From a virus, in IMG/VR virus record IMGVR_UViG_3300017769_000030, positions 1 to 42,050 of that record: DNA of 42,050 bases. One strand, written 5' to 3'. A program made the position numbers and the translations under genes. Below, piece after piece: positions 2,123-41,996 of this stretch. The notes under the pieces are model-generated. The model searched no databases, was not told the DNA's origin, and saw only the letters and a list, made by a program, of their open reading frames with translations. Numbering within the stretch: the stretch's first letter is position 1; each line of letters begins with the position of its first letter.

Positions 2123-2754
2123 CAGACCTCCTCCAAGACGTAAGACTGGTTTTTAAAGTTGGCGAACAGCGTGCTGCCGCTGAAGTCGGGGTGCAGGCTG
2201 CCGATCAGGGCGAGAATCCGGCTTTCCTGGCTGTTGAGGGCGTCCACCGCGTCGGCGAGGGTCTGGCTGTTCGGGTAGTCGCCCTGAGCCACGGCGGTGC
2301 CGTTATCGTTCTGGTACAGGGTCAGGCCGCCCGCATCCGGCACCCAGAAGAACTCGGTGTCGGAGGTGCCCGCGATACCGGCCGCCGTGTCGCCGTAGGT
2401 CGGCGCGCCATTGGCCGCCACGCCGGTGATCAGGTTCAGCCTGCTCTGAATCTTCCGCATGGCGCGGGTGAAGATGGCGGCGGTCTCGATGTCGCCGCTG
2501 GCCATCTCGGGGATACCGTCGGCGGTGAAATCGCGCTGGATGGCGTAGGCGCCGGAGCGATCCGCGCCCTTGTACGGGACGGTCAGGGTCAACTGCGTAT
2601 CGCTGTCCACGCTGGCGATGTCGTAAACGACGCCCGTGCCGGCCATGACGAAGCTGTCCCCGGCGCTGACGTTCGCCAACCACGCCGTGCCGACGCCGGA
2701 CACAACGGCGCTATCCTGAACCGCCGACGCGGTTCCGGTTCTGTACTGTGACAT
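2122..2754 (-). CDS. Putative tail fibre / tail appendage protein
   Basis: 210 residues, beta-rich, starting MSQYRTGTASAV with typical short-fibre spacing and a repeating GT/AV pattern (VVSGVGTAWLANVSAGDSF), a fold common in phage baseplate-proximal proteins. The C-terminal ~60 residues are predicted helical (LADAVDALNSQESRILALIG), suiting a trimerisation stem. It lies between the J-like tip protein and the LamG-like protein, so it is likely part of the distal tail. No enzymatic motif is visible. Confidence 0.7.
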   Translation of the reverse strand: MSQYRTGTASAVQDSAVVSGVGTAWLANVSAGDSFVMAGTGVVYDIASVDSDTQLTLTVPYKGADRSGAYAIQRDFTADGIPEMASGDIETAAIFTRAMRKIQSRLNLITGVAANGAPTYGDTAAGIAGTSDTEFFWVPDAGGLTLYQNDNGTAVAQGDYPNSQTLADAVDALNSQESRILALIGSLHPDFSGSTLFANFKNQSYVLEEV

Positions 2755-2777
2755 GGGGTTCTCCGATAGTATTAACG

Positions 2778-5700
2778 TCAGGTCTTTCCTAAATACTTTA
2801 GGTCGCCTATATAAACGCTTCGGTCGGGTGAAACTCCGTTAATCCGGAATTGCATGCTAGGAAAAGGCTGACTGAGTGTTGTATCCGGAATGTTTGTCGT
2901 GATCGTCGCCACCAATTGCCTATTCACATAGAAGAGAACCCTGTCGGAGAGGGTCTGGAGTCCTAGCCGGAGACGGAACTGATTGGTGGCCGAGCCCATC
3001 AATCCAAGGCTGACTTCCGTGATAACGCCGTCACGACCACAAGCCGCGTGCCACTCAAGTGATCCGCCCACTGGCTTAAGCCAAAAACCAATCACATTCT
3101 TGCCGGCTGACGAGGGGTCTCCTCGCCCGATAAAGAAGTTGGCATCGTCGCTTATTTGAAGATTGCTGCCGAGCATCATCTCTGCTGTGATTTTAGTGTC
3201 GTACCCATCAAAAGTTTGGAAGCTGCCCTTATTTGTTTCTGGCACAACATAAATACTTCCCCCGTCCGTGCCGCTATCAATGCGTAGGCGGAGTGCGCCG
3301 AGACGGCCATATACGTTATTGCTCGGGTTATCCTCAACAGAGACCGAGGTGCCGGCTGGAGCGATTATTGAATAATCCAGCAGATTGTGTGTGACAATGT
3401 ATCTCGAATAATCTCCGGCGTTGAAATTAGCAAACCCCTGAAAATCTGTGTCCGCACCGATTGAAAGCATGGCGCCATCGAATCGAACGAACTGCCTGGA
3501 GCCGTCACCAAAGTAAAAGGTGCCATCATTCTGGATATAAGATCGCCAGTCGGCCCCGTCGTAATACCCCAGGTGGGTGGCGGTCAGATTCAGGCCGGTG
3601 GAGGGCGTATCACCCAGCCGGGACGGGATGCCGGACAGGTTGCTGTACCAGTCGGCGCCTAGGCTGCCCGAATCGTCCCAGGTGGTGCCGTTCCACCGCT
3701 TCAGCAGCTTGGTGCTGTCGTTGTACCAGAGGTCACCCACCGCCTCCGCCGTCGGGGTGCTGGTGGTGAAGAACGTGGTGACCTTGCCGTCGGCGGTGGC
3801 TTGGGCGTCAGCGGCCTCGGACAGCGCCGTGCTAATGCCGCTGTCCTGGGCGTCCTGCCATGCGGTGCCGTCGTACCGGTAGGCCCGATTACCGTCGTCC
3901 GTGTCGAACCACAGGTCGCCGTTGCTCATGCCGCTGGCCGGCTCCGCGTCTTGATAGAACGACTGGATTTTACCGTCGGCGGTGGACTGGGCGGCGGCGG
4001 CCTCGGCCAGCGCCTGACCAATGGCCGCATCCCGCACGTCCTGCCACACCGATCCGTCCCACCGATGCAGCCGGTTCTGGTCGTCGGTGTCCACCCACAG
4101 GTCGCCGACGGACTGTGCCGTGGGCTCGCCGGCTTGGTAGAAGGTAAGGATTTTGCTATCCGCCGTGCCCTGTGCCGTCGCGGCATCAGAAAGAGCCTGG
4201 CCGATGCCCTCATCCTGAATCTCCACCCATGAGGTGCCATCCCAGCGGTACAGGCGGTCAGTGTCGGAATCCACCCAGAGGTCGCCCACACCATCGGCGG
4301 TGGGCTCCGAGGACTGGTAAAAGCTCGCGACCTTGCCGTCTGCCGCCGCCTGGGCATCGGCTGCATCCAGGATTGCCTGGGCGGCGTCGGCGGATGCCTG
4401 GGTGAGCGTGTCCGCCTCGCCGCTGTTAATGTCCGCCAGGGAGCCGGGCTTGTCGCTCAGGTTGCTGTAACCGCTGCCGCCGGTGATCACCACGGAGCCG
4501 GAGAACGCTGCCGAGCCGTCGCTGTAGACGGCAAACAGGGTGGTCCCGGCGTACTGGTAGGTGATCATGCCGGTCTTGCCGTCGGCGGACTTCGGCCCCA
4601 GCGTGGCCACGGCATCGCCCACGACACTTTCCACCTGCCCCTCCACGCTGATCTTCTCGGTGGCGGCCAGGGTGCCGGTGACGATCTTGGAGGCGGTGAG
4701 CTTGACGATCTTGGTGCTGTCGATGGCGTCGTTGGCCAGATTGGCGTCGATGAACGCCCGGTCGGCGTCGGTGACCGTGGCCCAGGGGCTCAGGCCCTCC
4801 ACCTCACCAGCGGACAGCGACGGCGTGGTAACCGTGAACTGGCTGCTGATCGTGCCCTGGCCGAAGGCGTCATAGGTGGCAAACCGCAGGTAGTAGGTGC
4901 TGTTGTCGGTGAGGCCGGACAGCACCACCGGCCCGCCGTACTGCTGGGCCACCAGGTTCTCAGGGCCGGGGGTGAATCCGGTGGTCTGGCTCATCCATAC
5001 CCGGGAATCGCGGTAGTCCAGGTCTTCCGGCGGCTCGAAGTCAATCTGCGCACTGCGGAAGCCGGCGGAGATGGTCAGGGTGCCCGGCAGGGGCGGGGCC
5101 ACGTTCTCAACGCTCAATCGCGCGGCCTGGGCACTGATCTGGTTCTGCCGGCCCCGGCAGTACACCCGGACCTCAAACGCGCGCCATGCGCCCGCTGAGA
5201 GCGTCTCGCGCTGGTGGTCCTCGGCGTTCTTCTCGTAGGTGTAGACGAACTGCGGGTCATTCACCCATTCGGTGCGCACCAGGGACAGGGTGCCGTCCAC
5301 GTCCGCCCACACCTCGACCTGATAATCCCGGAAGTACAGGTCCAGCCCGCCAGAGCCGGCGCCCTGCTCGCCCTCCTGGCCCATTTCAAACCATTCGGTC
5401 ACCGAGGTCTTGCGCCAGACGAACTTGGCGTCGCGGCCACCGAACACGGTGTCGTTGCCCTGCTCGAACAGCTCCAGGCCGTTGACCGGCGGGGCCGGGA
5501 CCACCTCGTTCGGATCGTCCTCCGGCTCCTCGCTCACGTCGCCGGGCGAGCGGACATAGGTGGTCGTGATTTCCGCCACGGTGCCGTCCTGGTTCACCTT
5601 GCCGCGCAGGGAGACGCCCCGGACCTGGACTTCGTAGGTTTTGCCGTCGCTGGGCACCACGAACGTGGCTTCGGGCGAGGCCGGGCCAACCTCGAACCAG

Positions 5701-23932: not shown

Positions 23933-24469
23933 TCACTTTGCCAGTGTCCACCCCTTCAGCTTTCCACGGCGGAAAGTGTGCGGCAGATCCTGGTGCTTCC
24001 TCGCATAGCTGATAGACGTATGATCAAACCCATAGCGACGCGTCGCCTCAAGGCCACTACCAAAATCGATCTCCTCGCCATCCGGCGAGATCAAAACAAA
24101 CGCTTTTGATCTATTGTGCTCTGCGCCAAACTTGCCAAGAGCACTTGGTGGAACCTTTTTACCAAGCACCCTTAGCGCATGCAGGTGATTCTCCGAGCAA
24201 GTGCACCACTCCAAGTTTTCAACCCGGTTGTCAGTTTTAACCCCATTTTTATGATTTACCTGAGGCAGCCCTTTCGGGTTCGGAATAAAAGCGCCTGCCA
24301 CTAATCGGTGAATCTGGTGGCGCTTAGGCTTTCCGTTAATGCAAAAGCAGACACTGTGATAACCCGGAGTTGATAGATTGGGCCGCAGCTTTTTTGTGCC
24401 ACTGAACACGTCACCGCGCTCGGTAACGGTGTAGCGGCCCTCATATCCTGGAACTATAGCTGTACGCAT
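23933..24469 (-). CDS. HNH homing endonuclease (NUMOD4 + HNH)
   Basis: 178 residues. The N-terminus is NUMOD4-like (VPGYEGRYTVTERGDVFSG). The HNH core is HQIHRLVAGAFIPNPKGLPQ, with VNHKNGVKTDNRVENLEW as the N/H part. The C-terminal part (GLEATRRYGFDHTSISYARK) is a DNA-binding NUMOD-type HTH. It is inserted between endolysin and holin. Its ribosome site lies in a hairpin loop, suggesting kept-low translation. A free-standing mobile gene, with no role in lysis. Confidence 0.92.
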   Translation of the reverse strand: MRTAIVPGYEGRYTVTERGDVFSGTKKLRPNLSTPGYHSVCFCINGKPKRHQIHRLVAGAFIPNPKGLPQVNHKNGVKTDNRVENLEWCTCSENHLHALRVLGKKVPPSALGKFGAEHNRSKAFVLISPDGEEIDFGSGLEATRRYGFDHTSISYARKHQDLPHTFRRGKLKGWTLAK

Positions 24470-26312: not shown

Positions 26313-27007
26313 GAGTCGCCGCCTCCCTGTGTGCCGTGCACACAATCCCAGCAACGGTGGGCTTCTATGCTATGACCCGTGGTCATTTTCCCGCACTGAC
26401 TGCATGCGGCCGAACGGCCTTTTGCTTCAATCTCCGAGGCAAGCACCGCCAAGGCCGACCGAAGCGCCTTTTTCAGGTGCGTCCCGGCAAGCATCTTTCG
26501 CCGTAACTCAACGGTTGGCAGCGCCCGGGCGAAAGCCCATGCCATTTCGTTCTCAAGATCAACCTCCGGAATCGCCGCGCTTGGCGCTAGATCTCGCCTC
26601 CAGGCAGAAATCAGAGGGTCAATCTCTTCGGCTTTTTCTTTCCATCCACTGGCCTCACCGAGGGCGCGCATCAGGTGCTGAGCGGATCGAATCCACTCCA
26701 GGACACCCTCTGGCAGGGTTGCTTTGGGCGCGCCACGCTTGAATAGCGGCGTGATAATCCGCAAGTCCTCGGGCGCGGCATGCTCCGGTCCATCCGTAAA
26801 TTCAGTTGGGCGCCCATTCACATCGGTGAAACAGTAGGCAAAAGGCGCCTCCCCCTCGGCATTAGAGAGGGCGGCTTGCCATGCGTCCCATGCAGCCTGG
26901 GCGTCGGGGTGCTGATAGCCGCCCTCTGTTCTGTCCGCCGGGATGATCGGGCGGACGTATTCGTCGTTATACCAAGCCTCAAACGCTTCTCTCTGCTGCT
27001 CGCTCAT
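26309..27007 (-). CDS. Mosaic hypothetical phage protein with C-terminal zinc knuckle
   Basis: Start at 27007 (MSEQQREAFEAW), with GAGG upstream; the longer frame has no support. 232 residues. The N-terminal EAFEAWYNDEYV ... AAWDAWQAAL is a widespread phage module; the C-terminus has CSQCGKM ... HRCWDC, a zinc-binding pair. In the middle, AALSNAEGEA is encoded by a 30-bp stretch also found in the gene at 39547, so it was built by module exchange. Function unknown. Confidence 0.7.
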   Translation of the reverse strand: MSEQQREAFEAWYNDEYVRPIIPADRTEGGYQHPDAQAAWDAWQAALSNAEGEAPFAYCFTDVNGRPTEFTDGPEHAAPEDLRIITPLFKRGAPKATLPEGVLEWIRSAQHLMRALGEASGWKEKAEEIDPLISAWRRDLAPSAAIPEVDLENEMAWAFARALPTVELRRKMLAGTHLKKALRSALAVLASEIEAKGRSAACSQCGKMTTGHSIEAHRCWDCVHGTQGGGDS

Positions 27008-27014
27008 ATCAACC

Positions 27015-27386
27015 TCACTTGTGGTAGTCCTCAATCGCGGCCAGCACCTCAGCCGAGCACGGCAGCTCGCCCTTCTGGCGACGGTAGTGCGCCACCAGGC
27101 CGGCAAAGATCAGCTTCTCCATGCCCCGCCGGCCGATGTCCCGCGGCTCGCCGTAATACTCGGTGACGAACTGGGCGGTGTTTTTGTCGATCGACGCCTC
27201 ATGCCGGTGGTGGCGCGGGCACAGAGGCAGGCAAAAATCTTGGCCTATCCACACCTTGTTGTGCTTCCCGGTGGACCCGACGCAGTGGTGAATCTCCGCC
27301 GGCATGCCGCAGCAGGCGCAGCCCTGCTCCCGGAGCCATTGATGCCACCGGCGCTGGGCTGCAGTAGGTGCTTTGCCGCCTTGCAT
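27015..27386 (-). CDS. Ref-like RecA-dependent HNH nuclease
   Basis: Start at 27386 (MQGGKAPT), overlapping the upstream stop by one base and preceded by GTGGAGC. 123 residues. CACCGMPAEIHHCVG, then WIGQDFCLPLCPRHHRHE gives the Cys/His pattern of the P1 Ref/recombination-enhancing nuclease family (HNH type). P1 Ref cuts DNA at RecA filaments and promotes recombination. Here it lies in the nin-like region, matching other temperate phages. Confidence 0.8.
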   Translation of the reverse strand: MQGGKAPTAAQRRWHQWLREQGCACCGMPAEIHHCVGSTGKHNKVWIGQDFCLPLCPRHHRHEASIDKNTAQFVTEYYGEPRDIGRRGMEKLIFAGLVAHYRRQKGELPCSAEVLAAIEDYHK

Positions 27387-27616
27387 CAGCTCCACCTCCA
27401 CTGGCGACCAAAAATCACAACGCCAACGCACTTAAACCAGGAAATGACAGGCGGCCCGTTTAATGGCCGGCCCAGCTCCTCGGAATGCTCTTGAATAAAA
27501 TCCTCTACCTTGTCCATCTGCCGGGTAATCGACCCGGTCACCAAAAATTCTCGACGGGAAACGATAGCGCCGCCTGGATAAGATCCTCTGCTGACCACAA
27601 AATAGATTCGCTTCAC
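27386..27616 (-). CDS. Small hypothetical protein
   Basis: 76 residues. Begins with a beta-rich part (KRIYFVVSRGSYPGGAIVSR) and has a helix (DKVEDFIQEHSEELG), ending in a hydrophobic, Trp-containing tail (WFKCVGVVIFGRQWRW). It overlaps both neighbours by 1-4 bp, so it is part of the nin-like operon. No recognised family; base use is like its neighbours. Confidence 0.6.
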   Translation of the reverse strand: MKRIYFVVSRGSYPGGAIVSRREFLVTGSITRQMDKVEDFIQEHSEELGRPLNGPPVISWFKCVGVVIFGRQWRWS

Positions 27617-28083
27617 GCTGCCACCCCCAGCAGATTGCTCATCTGCTCGATCTGGTCCTGCGTCAGCCCGCTCCAGTACATGTCGATGATGTGCTGGCAG
27701 AACTGGCCGTAGACCTGCTGGAATTCACCTTCGTCCATCTGGTCGAAGGACATGGATTTCGGCCACCGCTGGCTGACCACGCCATACCCGGGCACCTTCA
27801 CGTCCATTCGCTCGCAGCCGATGTCTGCCTCGAACTGGAGGCGCTTCAAAACGCTGTGCGCGTCCATGTTGGTGAAGTCGTCCAGATTCTCGATGAGGAG
27901 CTGGGCCAGCTTGTGGGCGCGTTTCCAGGCAGTGGGGTTCCGGGCCTTTTTCGGATCAGCCGACACCAGGTCACCGCGACGCAGTTTCCGCTGGCGCAGC
28001 AATTGCCGGCTCAGGTCGTCAGCGGGCACGAATGCGCCGTCGTCGGTGACGCGGAGCAGAACGGTTCGTCTCTGTTTAGCCAT
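27613..28083 (-). CDS. DUF1367 family protein (nin-region)
   Basis: Start at 28083 (MAKQRRTVLLR), with GGAGG just upstream. 156 residues. RNPTAWKRAHKLAQLLIENLDDF, the central RWPKSMSFDQMDEGEF and FCQHIIDMYW are the hallmarks of DUF1367, common in the nin region of lambda-like phages, of unknown biochemical role. It overlaps its neighbours on both sides. Confidence 0.82.
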   Translation of the reverse strand: MAKQRRTVLLRVTDDGAFVPADDLSRQLLRQRKLRRGDLVSADPKKARNPTAWKRAHKLAQLLIENLDDFTNMDAHSVLKRLQFEADIGCERMDVKVPGYGVVSQRWPKSMSFDQMDEGEFQQVYGQFCQHIIDMYWSGLTQDQIEQMSNLLGVAA

Positions 28084-28306
28084 GCACCACCTCCAGAATC
28101 TCCATGCCATGCGCCCGGTGTTTGGCCATGACGGTCATGCCCTGCTCGCCGTTGACGATGGCCTGGGGCCAGCCGGTTTGCTCTGCGAGGTAATGCGCTT
28201 CTTCCAGGGCGGCCTCGCTGTCGGTGAATACCGTCAGCGTTTGGCTCAAACTTGGCTCAGCTTTGGTTCGAGGTGATTTATTCGCGGTGTTTTGAGCCAG
28301 AGTCAT
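28076..28306 (-). CDS. Small hypothetical protein
   Basis: 76 residues. The N-terminal ~20 are hydrophilic and the rest has a compact alpha/beta look (EAALEEAHYLAEQTGWPQAIV, then GMTVMAKHRAHGMEI). Similar short proteins with AxYLAxxTGxPxAxV are common in phage nin regions. It starts in the stop of the homing endonuclease gene (ATGA). Function unknown. Confidence 0.65.
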   Translation of the reverse strand: MTLAQNTANKSPRTKAEPSLSQTLTVFTDSEAALEEAHYLAEQTGWPQAIVNGEQGMTVMAKHRAHGMEILEVVHG

Positions 28307-28824
28307 GCTGCAGCACTCTCCTGTTCAGAGGTCGGCAGCCCGACGGATAAATCAGGGAAGTTCAGGACGGCATACCGGCCGTGCAGCTTAATGGCGAGAA
28401 TATCTCGCTCCACGGCGGCCTCCAGCGCGGTCTCGCACTGCTTGGTATATCGAGCCCTGCCACCTTTTCTTACGACGCCAACATACTTGCCTCTCGCCTT
28501 CCTGAAATTGACGCCACGATAGCCGGTCATGTTCGGCTTCATGTTCGGCCGATTCCAAGAGTTCTCTGCTGCACTGCAGATGCGAAGGTTTCTCCGGCGA
28601 TTATCCAGGGTGTCATGATTTATGTGATCAACCTGCTGACCTTCACCTGCCTGCATGATTATCCGGTGCATATAAGAACCTGGAAGGCTGCGGTTCATCG
28701 CGTAGAATCCGCCGTGTCTGTTTTTGGCCTTCGAGGCACACCATGATCTCTGCGCCAAAAACTCATAATCTTCGTCATCTACGATGGCGACGAGTCCGCG
28801 TGTACACTTGATCTCCATGGTCAT
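28303..28824 (-). CDS. HNH endonuclease with AP2-like DNA-binding domain
   Basis: Start at 28824 (MTMEIK), overlapping the upstream stop as ATGA. 173 residues. YMHRIIMQAGEGQQVDHINH and DTLDNRRRNLRICSAAENSW form the HNH_3 core; MTGYRGVNFRKARGKYVGVV is the AP2-like C-terminal part. Short similar sequences (AGGAGAG..GC..AGCATGAC) lie at both ends, as if the gene entered at a stop/start junction and kept the coupling. A mobile gene in the replication operon. Confidence 0.9.
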   Translation of the reverse strand: MTMEIKCTRGLVAIVDDEDYEFLAQRSWCASKAKNRHGGFYAMNRSLPGSYMHRIIMQAGEGQQVDHINHDTLDNRRRNLRICSAAENSWNRPNMKPNMTGYRGVNFRKARGKYVGVVRKGGRARYTKQCETALEAAVERDILAIKLHGRYAVLNFPDLSVGLPTSEQESAAA

Positions 28825-29138
28825 GCTGCGCTCTCCTTGGTGAGGCTCCCCAGCCCAACCTTGTGCACGTTCCGCCCAGTCACCGGGCACGGCGTCAGGT
28901 CCTCGGATTCCACCAGCCGGCGGGCCTGGATCAGCGAGTTGGTGCGCGCCGCCACGGTGGACGTTTCCAGGCCGGTGATCGTGGCGATCTGCCGGCGACT
29001 GACCCATCCGTCGGCGTGCTGGCCGGTGCGGATCAGCAGGGCCACGCCGGCAAGCACCTGCTTCTGCTGCCGGCCCAGGTCGGCGGTTTTGAGGGCGTCG
29101 TAGGCCATGAGGCTGGATTCGCGGACGGAGGTTTTCAT
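28821..29138 (-). CDS. Winged-helix protein of the replication module
   Basis: 105 residues. LGRQQKQVLAGVALLIRTGQ then WVSRRQIATITGLETSTVAA form a winged HTH with RTNSLIQARRLVESED as wing. It follows the DnaC-like gene by one base. It may bind DNA in replication or regulation, like the small HTH proteins found between P-like and nin genes. Cysteine near the end (PCPVTGRN). Exact role unknown. Confidence 0.7.
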   Translation of the reverse strand: MKTSVRESSLMAYDALKTADLGRQQKQVLAGVALLIRTGQHADGWVSRRQIATITGLETSTVAARTNSLIQARRLVESEDLTPCPVTGRNVHKVGLGSLTKESAA

Positions 29139-29139
29139 G

Positions 29140-29976
29140 TCACTTGCCTCCCTTCAGGAAGCCGGCTTCGCGGCGCGGAACATCCAGCGCATCAGGCTGC
29201 TCGAACCGGCGGCTCTGACCCGTGCGGCGGTAGCTATCCCAGTCAAACGCCAGGATCGCCCCGCCGCCCTCGTACATCCGGTCAATGGCCCGATCACCGA
29301 TGTACCGGCCCAGCTCCGACTCCGGCAGGTTGGAGATCAGGATCGTTGGGCGCACCTCCTGGTAACGCTCGTCGATGATTTCTTGAGCCAGCAGCAACTC
29401 GGTTTCCGTGCCGCGCTGGGCGCCCACCTCGTCCAGGATCAGCAAATCGGGGTCCACGAAGCTGCGAATAACCTGCGCCTCGGTACGGTCTGACTTCGGG
29501 GTGTACGTCGCCTTCACCGCCCGGCTCATCTTCGTGACGGACGTGAACAGCGGCACCCGGAAGAACTCCCGCATGACGTGGTTCGCAATCGCGCAGGCCA
29601 GATGGGTTTTGCCGGTGCCGGGCTTGCCGCACAGAACCAGCCCGCCGCCCATCTGCAGGCGATCCTCGAAGCGCTCCGCGTAGCGCTGGCAGGCCGCCTT
29701 GATCTTTGCCGCCTTGTCGTTGGCTGGCTGGTAGTCGTCGAACCCATAGCCCTGAAACCGCTTGGGGATCAGTGCGCCCTGAGCCAGCTCCTCAACGCGG
29801 CGCTCCCGCGCAGCTCGGAGACGCTTTTCGTCATCCGCTTTCTGCTTCGCCTCGCGCTCCGCCTCGCACTCAGGGCAGCCAGTGGAAAACGTTCGGCCCA
29901 TGATTTCCTGAGCCTTGGATTCGTACTCGCCGTGGGTCTCGCATACGCCAGTGATGATTTTCTCTTGCGCTTCCAT
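29140..29976 (-). CDS. P: DnaC/P-like helicase loader ATPase
   Basis: Start at 29976, an ATG sharing its A with the upstream TGA stop and preceded by GGAGG. 278 residues. An N-terminal zinc finger (CETHGEYESK ... CPEC), a helical linker, then AAA+ core: Walker A GKPGTGKTHLA near 117, Walker B LLILDEVG near 178, arginine-finger region RAIDRMYEGGG. It delivers the host DnaB helicase to the phage origin. Works with the DUF1376/O-like initiator just upstream. Confidence 0.92.
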   Translation of the reverse strand: MEAQEKIITGVCETHGEYESKAQEIMGRTFSTGCPECEAEREAKQKADDEKRLRAARERRVEELAQGALIPKRFQGYGFDDYQPANDKAAKIKAACQRYAERFEDRLQMGGGLVLCGKPGTGKTHLACAIANHVMREFFRVPLFTSVTKMSRAVKATYTPKSDRTEAQVIRSFVDPDLLILDEVGAQRGTETELLLAQEIIDERYQEVRPTILISNLPESELGRYIGDRAIDRMYEGGGAILAFDWDSYRRTGQSRRFEQPDALDVPRREAGFLKGGK

Positions 29977-30848
29977 CACGCCTCCTTGGCCCAGTCGGGC
30001 AGGTGCTGGGTGAATTCTTGATCGGCAAAGCCGGTGTGCTTACCGGTGTGCGACTGGCCGGGACCACCACCAGGGGGTGGAGGCGTCCAGTCATCCAGGT
30101 AGTGTTCGCTGGGCCCGAAGAACGTGGCGCCCTGCTTCACGAATTCGGTGCCGGTCTTACCGGTGATGCGGCAGAACGCGGCGTACCGCTGAACGCCAGC
30201 CAGGATGTCATCAGGATCAGCCCCAGCCTTGACGCGGGCCTCCCAGGCTTTGCAGGCATCGCGTTTGTTGTTCCCTGGTCGCCTGGGGTACTCCTTCCAC
30301 GCTTGCTCGAACTCGTCGGGGTATGTGAGCTTGCGCTGCTTGCCAGCGCGAGGCGCCGAAGGCGCAATATCTTGTGACGGTCCTGGTGTTTGTAATGGTG
30401 AAGGTGAAGGTGATGGTGACGGGCACTCCTCATGCATTGCTTGAGCATTGCTTGTGGCATGCTTGGAGCATTGCTCGTTGCTTTGCTCTTGCTTTGCTTG
30501 CTGCTCCGCCTCTTTGTCCCAGCGCGCTTGTGCTGCGGCTTTCGCCTTCTCGCTGGCCTTCTGCTTCTTGTTGCGAGCGGCATCCATTTCGCGCTCGATG
30601 CGCTTGTGCTTCCACTCGCCGTTCTCAACCGTGAAGAAATGCTCAAGCGCTGCTCGGTGCATGCTCCAAGCATCCGGCGAAAGGCGGGTAATTTGAGCCA
30701 GGATGCCGTCGTTGTCGGGCAGCGCACCGTTCTTCCAATAGTCCATGATGAGCAGCAGGTAGGCCCCGTGCTGCTCAGTAGTGAGCCTGGAGGTTCCGGA
30801 CATGTAGTCGCCGATGTATAGCGGCATCCAGAGGTCAACATCAGCCAT
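29976..30848 (-). CDS. O: DUF1376 / O-like replication initiator
   Basis: 290 residues. Residues ~5-95 are a DUF1376 domain (WMPLYIGDYMSGTSRLTTEQ, WKNGALPDND). A charged helix (KKQKASEKAKAAAQARWDKE), a Ser/Pro linker (PSPSPSPSP) and a C-terminal helical domain (FEQAWKEYPRRPGNNKRDAC) follow. By position before a helicase loader it should be the origin-binding protein. The linker region of the gene carries six direct repeats (30434-30500), probably the origin itself, as in lambda O. No signal peptide. Confidence 0.85.
   Translation of the reverse strand: MADVDLWMPLYIGDYMSGTSRLTTEQHGAYLLLIMDYWKNGALPDNDGILAQITRLSPDAWSMHRAALEHFFTVENGEWKHKRIEREMDAARNKKQKASEKAKAAAQARWDKEAEQQAKQEQSNEQCSKHATSNAQAMHEECPSPSPSPSPLQTPGPSQDIAPSAPRAGKQRKLTYPDEFEQAWKEYPRRPGNNKRDACKAWEARVKAGADPDDILAGVQRYAAFCRITGKTGTEFVKQGATFFGPSEHYLDDWTPPPPGGGPGQSHTGKHTGFADQEFTQHLPDWAKEA
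30434..30500 (+). repeat. ori: Six iterons inside the initiator gene, likely origin of replication
   Basis: Units GCATTGCTTG (30434), GCATTGCTTG (30445), GCATGCTTG (30457), GCATTGCTCG (30468), GCTTTGCTCT (30480), GCTTTGCTTG (30491). Starts alternate 11, 12, 11, 12, 11 bp, so all face one side of the helix. They lie in the low-complexity linker coding part, where lambda O has its ori. A GGTGAA-type repeat precedes them at about 30395-30420. Confidence 0.7.
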
Positions 30849-31083
30849 TGCGGCGCTCCTCGGCGATGGCTATGGCACCGTCTACCGCCTCAATGATTTT
30901 CCGCGCAACTTCGTATGCCTGCATCGTCGGCAAGCGGATGCATGCGTCCTCCTCTGGGCCTAGACCGGGCTGCACCAGAAAGAAGCCGCTACCATCCTGG
31001 ATCGCCTCAAGCCTGAATGGCTCGTACTCTGTAACCAGGGGGGAATGTTTAGCTGTCTGGAAATCTGTGTCTGCCTTTGCCAT
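30841..31083 (-). CDS. Small hypothetical early protein
   Basis: Start at 31083 (MAKADTDFQ), preceded by GGAG. 80 residues, with a compact beta-beta-alpha look: EPFRLEAIQDGSGFFLVQPG then a helix (TMQAYEVARKIIEAVDGAI). It overlaps the initiator start by 8 bp. Similar short proteins occur before O-like genes in other phages; function unknown. A frame extended upstream to 31251 overlaps the HNH gene and was not used. Confidence 0.65.
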   Translation of the reverse strand: MAKADTDFQTAKHSPLVTEYEPFRLEAIQDGSGFFLVQPGLGPEEDACIRLPTMQAYEVARKIIEAVDGAIAIAEERRNG

Positions 31084-31104
31084 AATTAACTCCACGTTGT
31101 ATCC

Positions 31105-31139
31105 AAAGCCCCGGTTCCGCCTGCAAGCGCCGGGGCTTT
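31105..31139. terminator. Hairpin between the HNH gene and the replication genes
   Basis: AAAGCCCCGG and CCGGGGCTTT form a 10-bp stem with CTTTTCTGTTT on the plus side and a poor T-run on the minus side. It may partly stop transcription on the minus strand or protect RNA; a strong plus-strand terminator is more likely from its T-run. Confidence 0.6.
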
Positions 31140-31144
31140 TCTGT

Positions 31145-31735
31145 TTAAGCTGATTGCGCCTCAAGCTGGGCCAGTCGCGCCCGAAGCTCTGCCATTTCCT
31201 GTTCCGGGCTGACTTGCCGCCGGTCGCCATCGGAAAAGAATCCGCCGCCAATCACGCGTGCCGCCCCTTGGTACGCGGCGGATGCCGACTCTTTGCTGTC
31301 AAACAGCCCCAAGAAGTACGTTCTCCCGTGATTCTTAATCGCTGCCCGGTATTGCGTTGTGCCGCCCGAGATTACGGCACTGACACCCTTAAATTTCGTG
31401 GTGTTGTCGGATCGCATTGCGCCGTTAAGGCTGTTCTGCCATTGCTCGCAGCCCCTGAGATTCCAGGCTCTGTTGTCAGACGGGTTGCCGTTGATGTGGT
31501 CAACGTAACCGCGCGGACCCTCCCCGTTTATCAGCGCAAATATGATGCGGTGAGCAAGGTATTTGCGGCCCCGATACACAACCTGCCGATAACCTCTAGA
31601 GCTGCCCCTTGTGTCTGCTCTTTGCCCGATCTGGCGCTGAGAAACCTTCACCTTCCAGCGCAGGGCTCCTGTTGAGGGGCAGTAGTCCACCAACTCACGC
31701 CACATTGCTGCATCTATCGGTGTTGCGCTGCTCAT
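31145..31735 (-). CDS. HNH homing endonuclease with AP2-like domain
   Basis: 196 residues. LAHRIIFALINGEGPRGYVDH and INGNPSDNRAWNLRGCEQWQ are the HNH_3 core, and FKGVSAVISGGTTQYRAAIKNHG the AP2-like part. The last ~20 residues are a helix (MAELRARLAQLEAQ). Inserted between cII-like and initiator genes; the ATG overlaps the cII-like stop (ATGA). A mobile gene in the early operon, and one of four HNH genes here. Confidence 0.92.
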   Translation of the reverse strand: MSSATPIDAAMWRELVDYCPSTGALRWKVKVSQRQIGQRADTRGSSRGYRQVVYRGRKYLAHRIIFALINGEGPRGYVDHINGNPSDNRAWNLRGCEQWQNSLNGAMRSDNTTKFKGVSAVISGGTTQYRAAIKNHGRTYFLGLFDSKESASAAYQGAARVIGGGFFSDGDRRQVSPEQEMAELRARLAQLEAQSA

Positions 31736-32118
31736 GCCTCACCCCCAAACAGGCGCTCCGCCCGCTCAGCGATCTTTGCCAGCGCCTTGGTGGCGCCGAT
31801 GTATTCCCTCTGCAACTTCGCCCGTTCGTCCTCGGGCTCCAGAGGCTGGGGGCGGCTGTACCCGCATTCGTCAGCCATGAAGAACATGGCGGCGGAGGAA
31901 CCCTGTTCCCGGGCGCGGCGCATGATGAAAAGCATCTGCTCCAGGCCCAGCTTCTCGGCTTTGGCGGTGTTGATGCAGTCGGAAAGCCAGCGGCCGGCGG
32001 CTTGCGGGTCCGTTTCCGGCTTGAGCATCGCGCCCACCACCTTCGGCCCGCCCAGCATCAGGATGTCGGTGCGCAGCGCCTCGAAGATGTCCTCGTGAAA
32101 GAGGGTTGCCTGCTCCAT
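31732..32118 (-). CDS. cII: CII-like phage regulatory protein
   Basis: 128 residues. LGGPKVVGAMLKPETDPQAA and GRWLSDCINTAKAEKLGLEQ are the HTH signature of the phage regulatory CII-type (CP76/PF06892-like) family; ADECGYSRPQPLEPEDERAK is also typical. AGGAGAG ribosome site. It lies directly after the cro-like gene and a terminator, the cII place in lambda-like phages. It may steer lysogeny by activating repressor or int promoters; no such promoter is proven here. Confidence 0.72.
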   Translation of the reverse strand: MEQATLFHEDIFEALRTDILMLGGPKVVGAMLKPETDPQAAGRWLSDCINTAKAEKLGLEQMLFIMRRAREQGSSAAMFFMADECGYSRPQPLEPEDERAKLQREYIGATKALAKIAERAERLFGGEA

Positions 32119-32179
32119 CCGTCTCTCTCCTACTCGTTCCCACGCTGTCGGAAGGCGTCGGAAACCTGAATTCAGTCAA

Positions 32180-32205
32180 ATAAAAAGCGCTGCTCAGGCA
32201 GCGCT
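32180..32205 (-). terminator. tR1-like terminator overlapping the end of cro
   Basis: On the minus strand AGCGCTGC-CTGA-GCAGCGCT followed by TTTTTATTTGA. The TGA stop codon of the cro-like gene lies in the loop (32194-32196), so a ribosome ending cro translation would cover the hairpin. It separates cro from cII. Confidence 0.85.
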
Positions 32206-32379
32206 GGTATTTGCTGGTCGCTCAGCAACAAGCTTTCCGTCCGTCACCACCTGGATTTGGTACTGACGAGGAACGGGCGGCTTGTCGCCCCATTGGTGGA
32301 CCGCCGACCGGTTGATGCCCAGGGCTCGCGCCAGGGCGGCCGAACTGCCGAAATGCTGGATTGCGTCTGAAGTTTTCAT
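32194..32379 (-). CDS. cro: Cro-like HTH repressor
   Basis: Start at 32379 (MKTSDAIQHFG), with AGGTGA upstream; a GTG two codons earlier is possible. 61 residues. HFGSSAALARALGINRSAVH QWG is a typical Cro/YdaS-type HTH, followed by a short beta strand (YQIQVVTDGKL). First gene of the minus-strand early operon, divergent from the repressor, with operator oR between them. It should shut off repressor synthesis during lytic growth. Confidence 0.87.
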   Translation of the reverse strand: MKTSDAIQHFGSSAALARALGINRSAVHQWGDKPPVPRQYQIQVVTDGKLVAERPANTSAA

Positions 32380-32388
32380 AGTCACCTA

Positions 32389-32404
32389 GTTAAGCATGCT
32401 GGAC
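32389..32404. promoter_or_regulatory. Operator oR
   Basis: On the minus strand GTCCAGCATGCTTAAC, a near-perfect palindrome also found at oL1 and oL2. It lies between cro and the repressor and overlaps the likely -10/spacer of the cro promoter (TTGACG upstream) and the -35 region of the repressor promoter (-10 CATACT at 32419-32424). Confidence 0.8.
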
Positions 32405-32452
32405 TCTATGCCGTCAATCATACTAAACAGCGCAGGACTTATCATCCCCTGC

Positions 32453-32806
32453 ATGTCTACCATCGCTGAACGAATTCGGGACGCCCGCCTTTTTGCTGGC
32501 ATTACCGCACCTTCCGAGCTGGCCCGCCGATGCGGAGTCAGCCGCTCTGCTGTTTCTCAGTGGGAGAGCGGCGACACCAAGAACATCAAGCTGGCCAATC
32601 TTGAGAAGGTGGCGGAGGCCTGTAAGGTCGACATGGCCTGGCTTGTGACCGGCAAAGGCCGCAAAGAGGGCATTCCGCTTGAGGTTCAGCAATTGGCCGA
32701 AGCCATAAACAGCCGCCCTCCCCACCAGCGCGAGGCGTTACGGGCGCTACTTGGTCCGACTGATGAACACGACAACGGTGCCGAGTCCGCCACAGGAACT
32801 AATTAA
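32453..32806 (+). CDS. cI: CI-like lysogeny repressor, HTH only
   Basis: Start chosen at 32453 (MSTIAERIRDARL), where the HTH family begins; an ATG at 32396 lies in oR. 117 residues. The HTH_3 domain is at about 5-62 (ELARRCGVSRSAVSQWESGD, then VDMAWLVTGKG). The rest (~50 residues) is too short for the LexA-like peptidase domain of lambda CI, so RecA-triggered self-cleavage is not expected. It faces cro and is followed by a terminator and the two oL operators. Confidence 0.85.
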   Translation: MSTIAERIRDARLFAGITAPSELARRCGVSRSAVSQWESGDTKNIKLANLEKVAEACKVDMAWLVTGKGRKEGIPLEVQQLAEAINSRPPHQREALRALLGPTDEHDNGAESATGTN

Positions 32807-32833
32807 CGCCCTTTCCCGCCGCAATCGCAGATA

Positions 32834-32855
32834 GCCGCCTCTTGGCGGTTTTTTT
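32834..32855 (+). terminator. Intrinsic terminator after the repressor
   Basis: CCGCC-TCTT-GGCGG followed by TTTTTTT. It isolates repressor transcription from the pL-like promoter that starts 20 bp on. Confidence 0.9.
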
Positions 32856-32866
32856 GTAATTTGTTC

Positions 32867-32882
32867 GTCCAGCATGCTTGAC
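32867..32882. promoter_or_regulatory. Operator oL1
   Basis: GTCCAGCATGCTTGAC, 15 of 16 bases as oR. Its last part supplies the -35 hexamer (TTGACA, 32878-32883) of the plus-strand early promoter. Confidence 0.82.
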
Positions 32883-32907
32883 ACCTCATTCCTGAGTCGT
32901 CTAGCAT
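32878..32907 (+). promoter_or_regulatory. Early promoter pL
   Basis: -35 TTGACA (32878-32883, consensus) and -10 TAGCAT (32902-32907), 18-bp spacer. oL1 and oL2 sit on the two hexamers, so bound repressor should block polymerase. It drives the plus-strand operon from 32949. Confidence 0.75.
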
Positions 32908-32914
32908 GCTTAAC
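32899..32914. promoter_or_regulatory. Operator oL2
   Basis: GTCTAGCATGCTTAAC. Centre is 32 bp from oL1, three helical turns, good for cooperative binding on one face. It covers the -10 of pL. Confidence 0.82.
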
Positions 32915-32948
32915 ACATCAACACGGACAACCCGCAGGGGAACGAGAT

Positions 32949-33356
32949 ATGAACACAGCACTTTTGATTTACCTCTACATCGTCGCCGGCAACGTCGCAT
33001 CGGCATTTGCGGCCGCAGCTTTCATCTTGGCTATTGGCTACTTCGTGCCGCTAGCCGTAATGGGGCTCTTTAGCAGCTTCGGCTCTGACACTCACTGGAG
33101 TGGCGACGCGTTGAGCCCAGAAAGCAAAGGCTTCCTCGCGATGCGTCGGCACTTCAAGTCCGTCGTTATCGCCCTGGCGCTGCTTGGCTCCGTACCTGCC
33201 CTCTACCCCGACAAGGAAGACGTAGCCTGGATTCTTGGTGGCGCCGCCGCTGTGCATGTTGCTCAGACGGAAGAGGCTAAAAAGCTGCCCGACAACCTGC
33301 TGAGGGCCGCCAACACCTTCTTGGAAGGTATCTCCGAAACCGAATCCGAACAGTAA
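32949..33356 (+). CDS. Membrane protein, first gene of the pL operon
   Basis: Start at 32949 (MNTALLIYLYIVAG), after AGGGG; a frame starting at 32874 lies in the promoter. 135 residues. Two hydrophobic segments (about 1-30 and 34-45, FILAIGYFVPLAVMGLF), a charged middle with MRRHFKSVVIALALLGSVP, and an acidic tail. Proteins at this place in lambda-like phages are often superinfection-exclusion or host-control proteins; not recognised by family. No N-like protein lies here instead. Confidence 0.7.
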   Translation: MNTALLIYLYIVAGNVASAFAAAAFILAIGYFVPLAVMGLFSSFGSDTHWSGDALSPESKGFLAMRRHFKSVVIALALLGSVPALYPDKEDVAWILGGAAAVHVAQTEEAKKLPDNLLRAANTFLEGISETESEQ

Positions 33357-37531: not shown

Positions 37532-38017
37532 ATGCCGAATCATAAAGCTATCGCACGGCTACTCCTGCGCCGCCATGTAAATGATGAAACCGGATGCTGG
37601 GAGTGGCAGGGCTGCATTCAAGGCAACGGATATGGGCGCATAAGATTTAATGGACGGACCCAATACGTGCATCGACTTTCTTTTGAGGCCCACAAGGCGC
37701 CAATTCCGGACGGGCTTGATGTTTGCCACACCTGCGATAACCGGCGCTGCTTCAACCCCGACCACCTTTTCGCCGGAACCCGCACGGACAACATGCGAGA
37801 CGCGGTACGGAAGGGCAGGCAAGCGCGAGGCGAGACGATTTCCAGGCTGCACAGAGGTGAGCTGTCCAACTTCTCGAAGCTTAAGAGACCTCAGGTAGTC
37901 GCCATCCGCGCCCTAAGGAGTAAAGGGGCCACCACTAATGAGCTCGCGACCCTGGCAAACGTGAGCGCGGACAACATACGCCGCATTTTGCGGAACGATA
38001 CCTGGAAGGAGGCATAA
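37532..38017 (+). CDS. HNH homing endonuclease with C-terminal HTH
   Basis: 161 residues. [39 protein letters not shown] is the HNH core with the zinc-type Cys pairs; the last ~50 residues hold an HTH ([20 protein letters not shown]). It is inserted between the exonuclease and SSB genes and its own last codons supply the GGAGG ribosome site of ssb. The only plus-strand member of the four HNH genes. Confidence 0.9.
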
Positions 38018-41832: not shown

Positions 41833-41863
41833 TTTTGATTTCATTTTGATTTTGTTTTGATTT
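41833..41863 (+). repeat. Three TTTTGATTT direct repeats, 11-bp period
   Basis: At 41833, 41844 and 41855, exactly 11 bp apart, between the integrase stop and the att core. They match similar single sites on the attL side (322-330 and inverted 397-405). Likely integrase arm-type binding sites. Confidence 0.65.
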
Positions 41864-41917: not shown

Positions 41918-41967
41918 TTTGGTCGGGACGGAAGGATTCGAACCTTCGACCCCTTGCACCCCATGCA
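41918..41967. repeat. attR: attR core, 50-bp direct repeat
   Basis: Identical to 251-300. Its right end is at the 5' side of the anticodon stem of tRNA-Pro, where phage-carried sequence meets host sequence. Confidence 0.95.
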
Positions 41968-41996
41968 AGTGCGCTACCAGGCTGCGCTACGCCACG
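41920..41996 (-). tRNA. tRNA-Pro (anticodon GGG)
   Basis: 77 bases including encoded CCA (41920-41922). Anticodon loop ATGGGGT gives anticodon GGG with G37; the D, anticodon and T stems pair fully. The acceptor stem has a T/C mismatch at 3:70 and a G/T wobble at 5:68 (5' CGTGGCG with 3' CGTCCCG). The 3' half is part of the att core, so integration rebuilt this gene. Confidence 0.93.

Follow-up and report, generated by a model that had tools for sequence, protein, structure and literature searches.

A likely lambda-like replication origin within the DUF1376 initiator gene of a prophage

The window, meaning the whole stretch of 42,050 nt analysed here, is a virus record marked as a prophage by an att-like stretch of roughly 48 bp that recurs at both ends (about 252-300 and 41919-41967, the right end spanning 41919-41996), with the right copy lying within a tRNA-Pro(ggg) gene. 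The DUF1376 initiator gene, at 29976-30848 on the minus strand, encodes a protein of 290 residues whose sole Pfam match is DUF1376 (PF07120, E 2.6e-20, 73 bits against a curated cut-off of 30.1). The C-terminal half of this protein matches phage replication-initiation families in PHROGs (primosomal/replication initiation), and the Pfam search of the gene gave no membership of Phage_rep_O (PF04492). A DnaC-like helicase loader gene follows (29140-29979, minus strand; IstB/AAA matches in Pfam, phrog_50 at E 2e-79) and a cro/CI-type control region lies upstream, an order that is lambda-like. The small gene after the loader (28821-29138) has a weak Phage_rep_O match, below the cut-off (E 0.0007). 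The prophage also carries four HNH endonuclease genes (23933-24469, 28303-28830, 31145-31735 and 37532-38017) and a DUF968/RecA-dependent-nuclease-like gene (27015-27431). The second most repeat-rich spot of the window, at 41833-41863, consists of TTTTGATTTCA-type 11-bp repeats directly before attR.

A structure model of the initiator was built on an alignment of the window protein with proteins from fetched relative loci. The predicted layout is a DUF1376 N-terminal domain, a disordered linker and a C-terminal domain of the replication-initiator type. Residues 1-130 (30459-30848, minus strand), the proposed iteron-binding part, are predicted with high confidence to form four helices, a two-strand wing and a long helix, which is the winged-helix order. 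Residues of about 131-177 have no regular structure in the model; they are encoded by the iterons, the hexamers and the sequence directly after them. A fold search of the PDB with the model returned nothing significant (best E 0.05), with mostly winged-helix DNA-binding domains among the top matches, and a viral structure library returned mainly other DUF1376 proteins. The sequence search of solved structures gave no relative of the initiator.

The first-pass annotation had proposed a lambda-style iteron origin in the linker-coding part of this gene, and both the positions of the units and the predicted disorder of the linker agree with that placement. Gene and units (unit CAAGCAATGC) are read on the minus strand. 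Direct reading and a weight matrix place iteron 1, CAAGCAAAGCA, at 30490-30500; iteron 2, AGAGCAAAGCA, a weak match, at 30479-30489; iteron 3, CGAGCAATGCT, at 30467-30477; iteron 4, CAAGCATGCCA, with one base deleted, at 30455-30465; iteron 5, CAAGCAATGCT, the best match to the relatives in 42 kb, at 30444-30454; and iteron 6, CAAGCAATGCA, at 30433-30443, all on the minus strand. The unit starts given in the annotation were recovered, namely GCATTGCTTG at 30434 and 30445, GCATGCTTG, one base shorter, at 30457, GCATTGCTCG at 30468, GCTTTGCTCT at 30480 and GCTTTGCTTG at 30491. Direct reading and repeat tools also returned the claimed alternation, with steps of 11, 12, 11, 12 and 11 bp; the accompanying claim of near-helical phasing fits less exactly, since the average of 11.5 bp slightly exceeds one helical turn. 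A possible seventh unit, TGAGGAGTGCC (30422-30432, minus strand), is recognised by its position against GAGCAATGCCC in relatives and was missed by the weight matrix; the alignment makes it probable that a degenerate unit stands in front of the hexamer block.

Because some of the steps are not divisible by three, the units fall in different codon phases, and the array is therefore no codon repeat. The score for out-of-frame repeats was 47, compared with a mean of 11.5 in synonymous-codon shuffles, none of 3000 of which reached 47, and the top 120-bp windows of the whole 42 kb for this score lay at 30381-30421. Both the statistic and the region were chosen after the repeat had been seen, and the relatives are therefore the real test. 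Using a weight matrix built from distant relatives only, the three best matches in 42 kb on both strands were 30444-30454, 30433-30443 and 30467-30477. A single 10-bp unit with one mismatch allowed is uninformative, occurring at chance level (5 found, 4.0 expected), whereas the tandem arrangement exceeds chance. Unit-like sequences also occur in inverted orientation at 30634-30673, in the part that codes for the domain; they were taken as chance because distant relatives do not conserve the protein there. GC skew follows gene orientation and does not otherwise mark the site.

For comparison, 170 DUF1376 genes were collected and reduced to 110 by removal of near-copies. Linker repeats out of frame and above a protein-preserving null were found at p<0.05 in 49 and at p<0.01 in 26 of these 110 non-independent genes, while the same-gene controls gave 16 and 7 for the domain and 11 and 1 for the C-terminus. 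Chains of at least three units occurred in 39 of 58, 15 of 19 and 27 of 33 genes in three clades, A, B and C, set by simple sequence rules with a few members misplaced, where 9.2, 5.0 and 1.9 were expected. Of 204 steps within the chains, only 4 departed from 11 or 12 bp, with 10-13 bp permitted. Autocorrelation peaked at 11/12 and 22-24 bp across clades, and also at 34/35 bp in clade A, where the arrays of about a third of the genes are too degenerate to qualify as chains. The unit sequence differs between the three clades and co-varies with the DNA-binding domain; the spacing is the same, units of 9-10 bp recurring every 11-12 bp. The consensuses are hyphenated palindromes (AGCA-A-TGCT, AACG-AA-CGTT and TGCA-AA-TGCA), part of whose core was fixed by the search pattern. 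Linker iterons on an 11/12-bp step, proposed here as a feature of DUF1376 genes, are thus found in the window and in the family. The same protein without the repeats, the counter-case named in the first-pass annotation, was clear only in L185 and L190, both truncated DUF1376 genes (about 2501-3000 of these loci), in which the gene is cut at about residue 75 and joined to HNH-type sequence, with loss of the iterons; in both, the gene that follows is initiator-like but unrelated, and carries repeats of its own together with an ACAGAT block. Both loci are viral, with a Rhizobium phage protein as a relative.

Directly after the iterons lies the hexamer block TCACCA TCACCT TCACCT TCACCA (30396-30419, minus strand), which codes for SPSPSPSP, was recovered by the repeat tools and is fixed at the synonymous level in relatives. 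The first-pass annotation had mentioned a GGTGAA-type repeat beside the units, and this is the same block read on the other strand (TCACCN on the coding strand); beyond that bare mention, its conservation marks it as part of the putative origin. The stretch behind it (30372-30395, minus strand) is, in a duplex-stability comparison, the counterpart of the least stable DNA of the relatives, although only its first 12 bp are AT-rich in the window (0.67 against 0.40 for the gene). In all three clades, duplex stability is lowest within the 24-48 bp following the hexamer start; in clade B the low begins at the hexamers themselves, and in clade C, which has no hexamers, the distance was measured from a conserved GATACGGGCG. 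A low-stability region beside the iterons is therefore clear as a family average and weak in the GC-rich window. In clade C loci such as L157 and L173, a block GATACGGGCG...CCTCACTTCGTTCGG with nearly fixed codons replaces the hexamers after the iterons.

An operator or incompatibility array, with DUF1376 binding mainly regulating its own operon or copy number and the origin lying elsewhere, is the alternative that survives best. Iteron arrays in iteron replicons can have regulatory roles, and the array does sit inside the early operon. It lies, however, mid-gene, hundreds of bases from the gene start; conserved hexamers and a low-stability stretch stand at a fixed place behind it, as in known origins; and no second cluster of such units was seen elsewhere in the window by repeat scan or weight matrix. 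This makes a purely regulatory array quite unlikely.

Retention of the units at the synonymous level, put forward in the first-pass annotation as a check, was strongly borne out by the null shuffles, the unit chains and codon fixation. Mean codon homozygosity in conserved linker columns was 0.69, 0.73 and 0.73, compared with 0.42, 0.43 and 0.55 in the domain. Within the dipeptide runs that follow the iterons, every one of 171 Ser codons is TCA (166 of 786 elsewhere in the same genes), every one of 66 Thr codons ACA and every one of 54 Asp codons GAT, the third base of Pro being freer. Against window positions 27001-33000, the sole DNA-alignable stretch of the distant locus L012, whose protein is about 42-46% identical to that of the window, is 30393-30471, that is, iterons and hexamers, and L028 aligns over 30398-30472 and part of the domain. 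These data bear on a second alternative, in which the stretch is a low-complexity, SP-rich flexible linker, slippage produced the repeats, and any retention of them serves the protein. The repeat stretch does code for a predicted disordered linker, and the dipeptide runs hold one frame in 78 of the 80 ACAGAT loci listed, so the protein does constrain them; but the 11-bp iteron steps are out of frame and not reproduced by protein-preserving shuffles, codons are fixed across diverged genes, and DNA similarity to L012 is confined to the iteron/hexamer stretch, leaving this explanation very improbable.

Natural hybrids point to co-inheritance of the domain and its array. By DNA comparison with relatives, the junction zone at which hybrids switch the C-terminal domain lies at 30326-30364 (minus strand), directly past the putative origin. 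L003 matches the window over 30326-31146 at 95%, covering DUF1376 and the repeats, and then continues into another C-terminus with a weak DnaT match. Conversely, L010 and L011 share 30055-30364, and L008 shares 29110-30364, with the window at 90-92%, joined to other N-termini and other linker repeats. From these four hybrids, DUF1376 and the array evidently travel as a cassette with a border directly after the array. In L008, L010, L011 and L014 a window-type C-terminal domain is joined to different N-termini, and the short repeats in the linker differ as well (CAAGCCTAGT, and CCTGATTCC in L010), so the cassette principle may extend beyond DUF1376. Partition sites typically carry short tandem repeats and the hybrid border adjoins the array, but a site serving phage domain swapping or segregation instead of initiation is just as improbable as the protein-linker explanation, given that domain borders are expected to recombine anyway, that the unit sequence co-varies with the DNA-binding domain, and that the flanking genes are replication genes with no partition gene seen among those typed.

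The array is thus very probably a phage replication origin lying inside its own initiator gene, lambda-like in layout, which the winged-helix DUF1376 domain would bind, with opening and helicase loading proposed beyond it. The lambda-style origin that had been proposed is supported by synonymous conservation, the adjacent loader, the predicted winged helix and linker, and cassette exchange. We infer the following steps from this arrangement. The DUF1376 winged-helix domain would bind the head-to-tail array of short hyphenated palindromes, and a spacing close to one unit for each turn of the helix would account for the steps of 11 or 12 bp. Once assembled on the array, the protein would put strain on the adjacent DNA and promote its opening across, or just after, the hexamers and the AT-rich stretch that follows them. 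With the DNA open, the C-terminal domain, still attached through the disordered linker, would recruit the DnaC-like loader and the replicative helicase to the exposed strand.

The lambda origin comprises four 18-bp iterons and a 39-bp AT-rich region (PMC6022878), with the repeats and the AT-rich tract in the middle of gene O, hyphenated inverted repeats with central adenines, and the loader gene next (PMC6022878, PMC7466680). Like the lambda and Stx-phage origins, the window has its repeats midway through the initiator gene, in the linker that joins the DNA-binding and C-terminal domains, with the loader next, and the DUF1376 consensuses share the hyphenated dyad symmetry and central adenines of lambda. 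Unlike lambda, the window has six or seven palindromes of 9-10 bp, about half the length, on an 11-12 bp step; a hexamer block stands between the iterons and the AT-rich stretch; and the DNA-binding domain is DUF1376 and not Phage_rep_O. With no Phage_rep_O membership and a different unit length, the array would work like ori-lambda but is not filed with that family: of the earlier description as "ori-in-O", the origin layout stands, while the protein lies outside the O family. In SPP1, oriL has direct repeats and an unwinding element within the origin-binding protein gene 38, and loader and helicase are both phage-encoded (PMC6316719); the window is similar in having repeats within the initiator gene, and differs in protein and host group. 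Lambda ori and SPP1 oriL serve as working analogues. YdaU of the Rac prophage shares the N-terminal DUF1376; its gene (in L034) contains repeats in the linker part and a run of GATACA hexamers, with ydaV next. Its unit sequence is that of clade B.

Hexamer blocks recur outside DUF1376 genes. An exact, unbiased scan of viral contigs for ACAGATx4, which selects for exact arrays, found at least 80 loci, nearly all in the TDTD reading frame. Among 72 proteins from the matches listed, a DnaD-like loader family accounts for 32 and DUF1376 for 17, and Lin1244_N, Phage_rep_org_N and DUF6291 for a few more; the arrays among these matches lie mostly in initiator-like genes, many with unrelated N-terminal domains. 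The 43 non-redundant ACAGAT genes among the matches listed that have no recognised DUF1376 carry upstream out-of-frame repeats at 10-12, 20-23 and 30-31 bp, with 88 matches at 10 bp and 70 at 11 bp, where about 11 and 10 were expected. Since the same ACAGAT block follows different iterons and unrelated N-terminal domains, the hexamers would be read by something shared. It is conceivable, and offered tentatively, that the block (TCACCN or ACAGAT) is a general origin element of temperate phages, read by a host protein, loader or helicase and not by the DNA-binding domain, and that the block acts as a strand-specific opening or loading track in a position comparable to that of DnaA-trios. The DnaA-trio module consists of at least three tandem trinucleotides with a central A (NAN) next to DnaA boxes (PMC8287927). 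By analogy only, the window follows the same order of parts, with double-strand sites, a short spacer, a short tandem motif and an unwinding stretch, but its initiator is not DnaA, and its TCACCN hexamers, like the NNAGAT hexamers of relatives, do not fit the trio motif as defined (PMC8287927). The DnaD recognition element (TnnT pairs; PMC10201434) is likewise a misfit. TCACCT alone is not diagnostic, as its exact scan mixes initiators with unrelated EGEGEG proteins.

In the DUF1376/YdaU literature, covered in part and judged by titles and mention counts, no origin study was found, and a literature search of partial coverage for the ACAGAT repeat gave only an unrelated paper; a DUF1376 origin is therefore provisionally novel. 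What is added to the first-pass annotation is the hexamer block as a conserved element of the proposed origin, and the ACAGAT arrays in initiator-like genes beyond DUF1376. A widespread phage family on which hardly any literature was found thereby gains a likely function and a testable DNA target. For many temperate phages, a rule for locating origins would follow, namely to examine the DNA that encodes the linker of the initiator. The prediction is that initiator specificity travels as a cassette of domain and iterons, and the conserved hexamer block is singled out as an element whose role in origin opening is directly testable.
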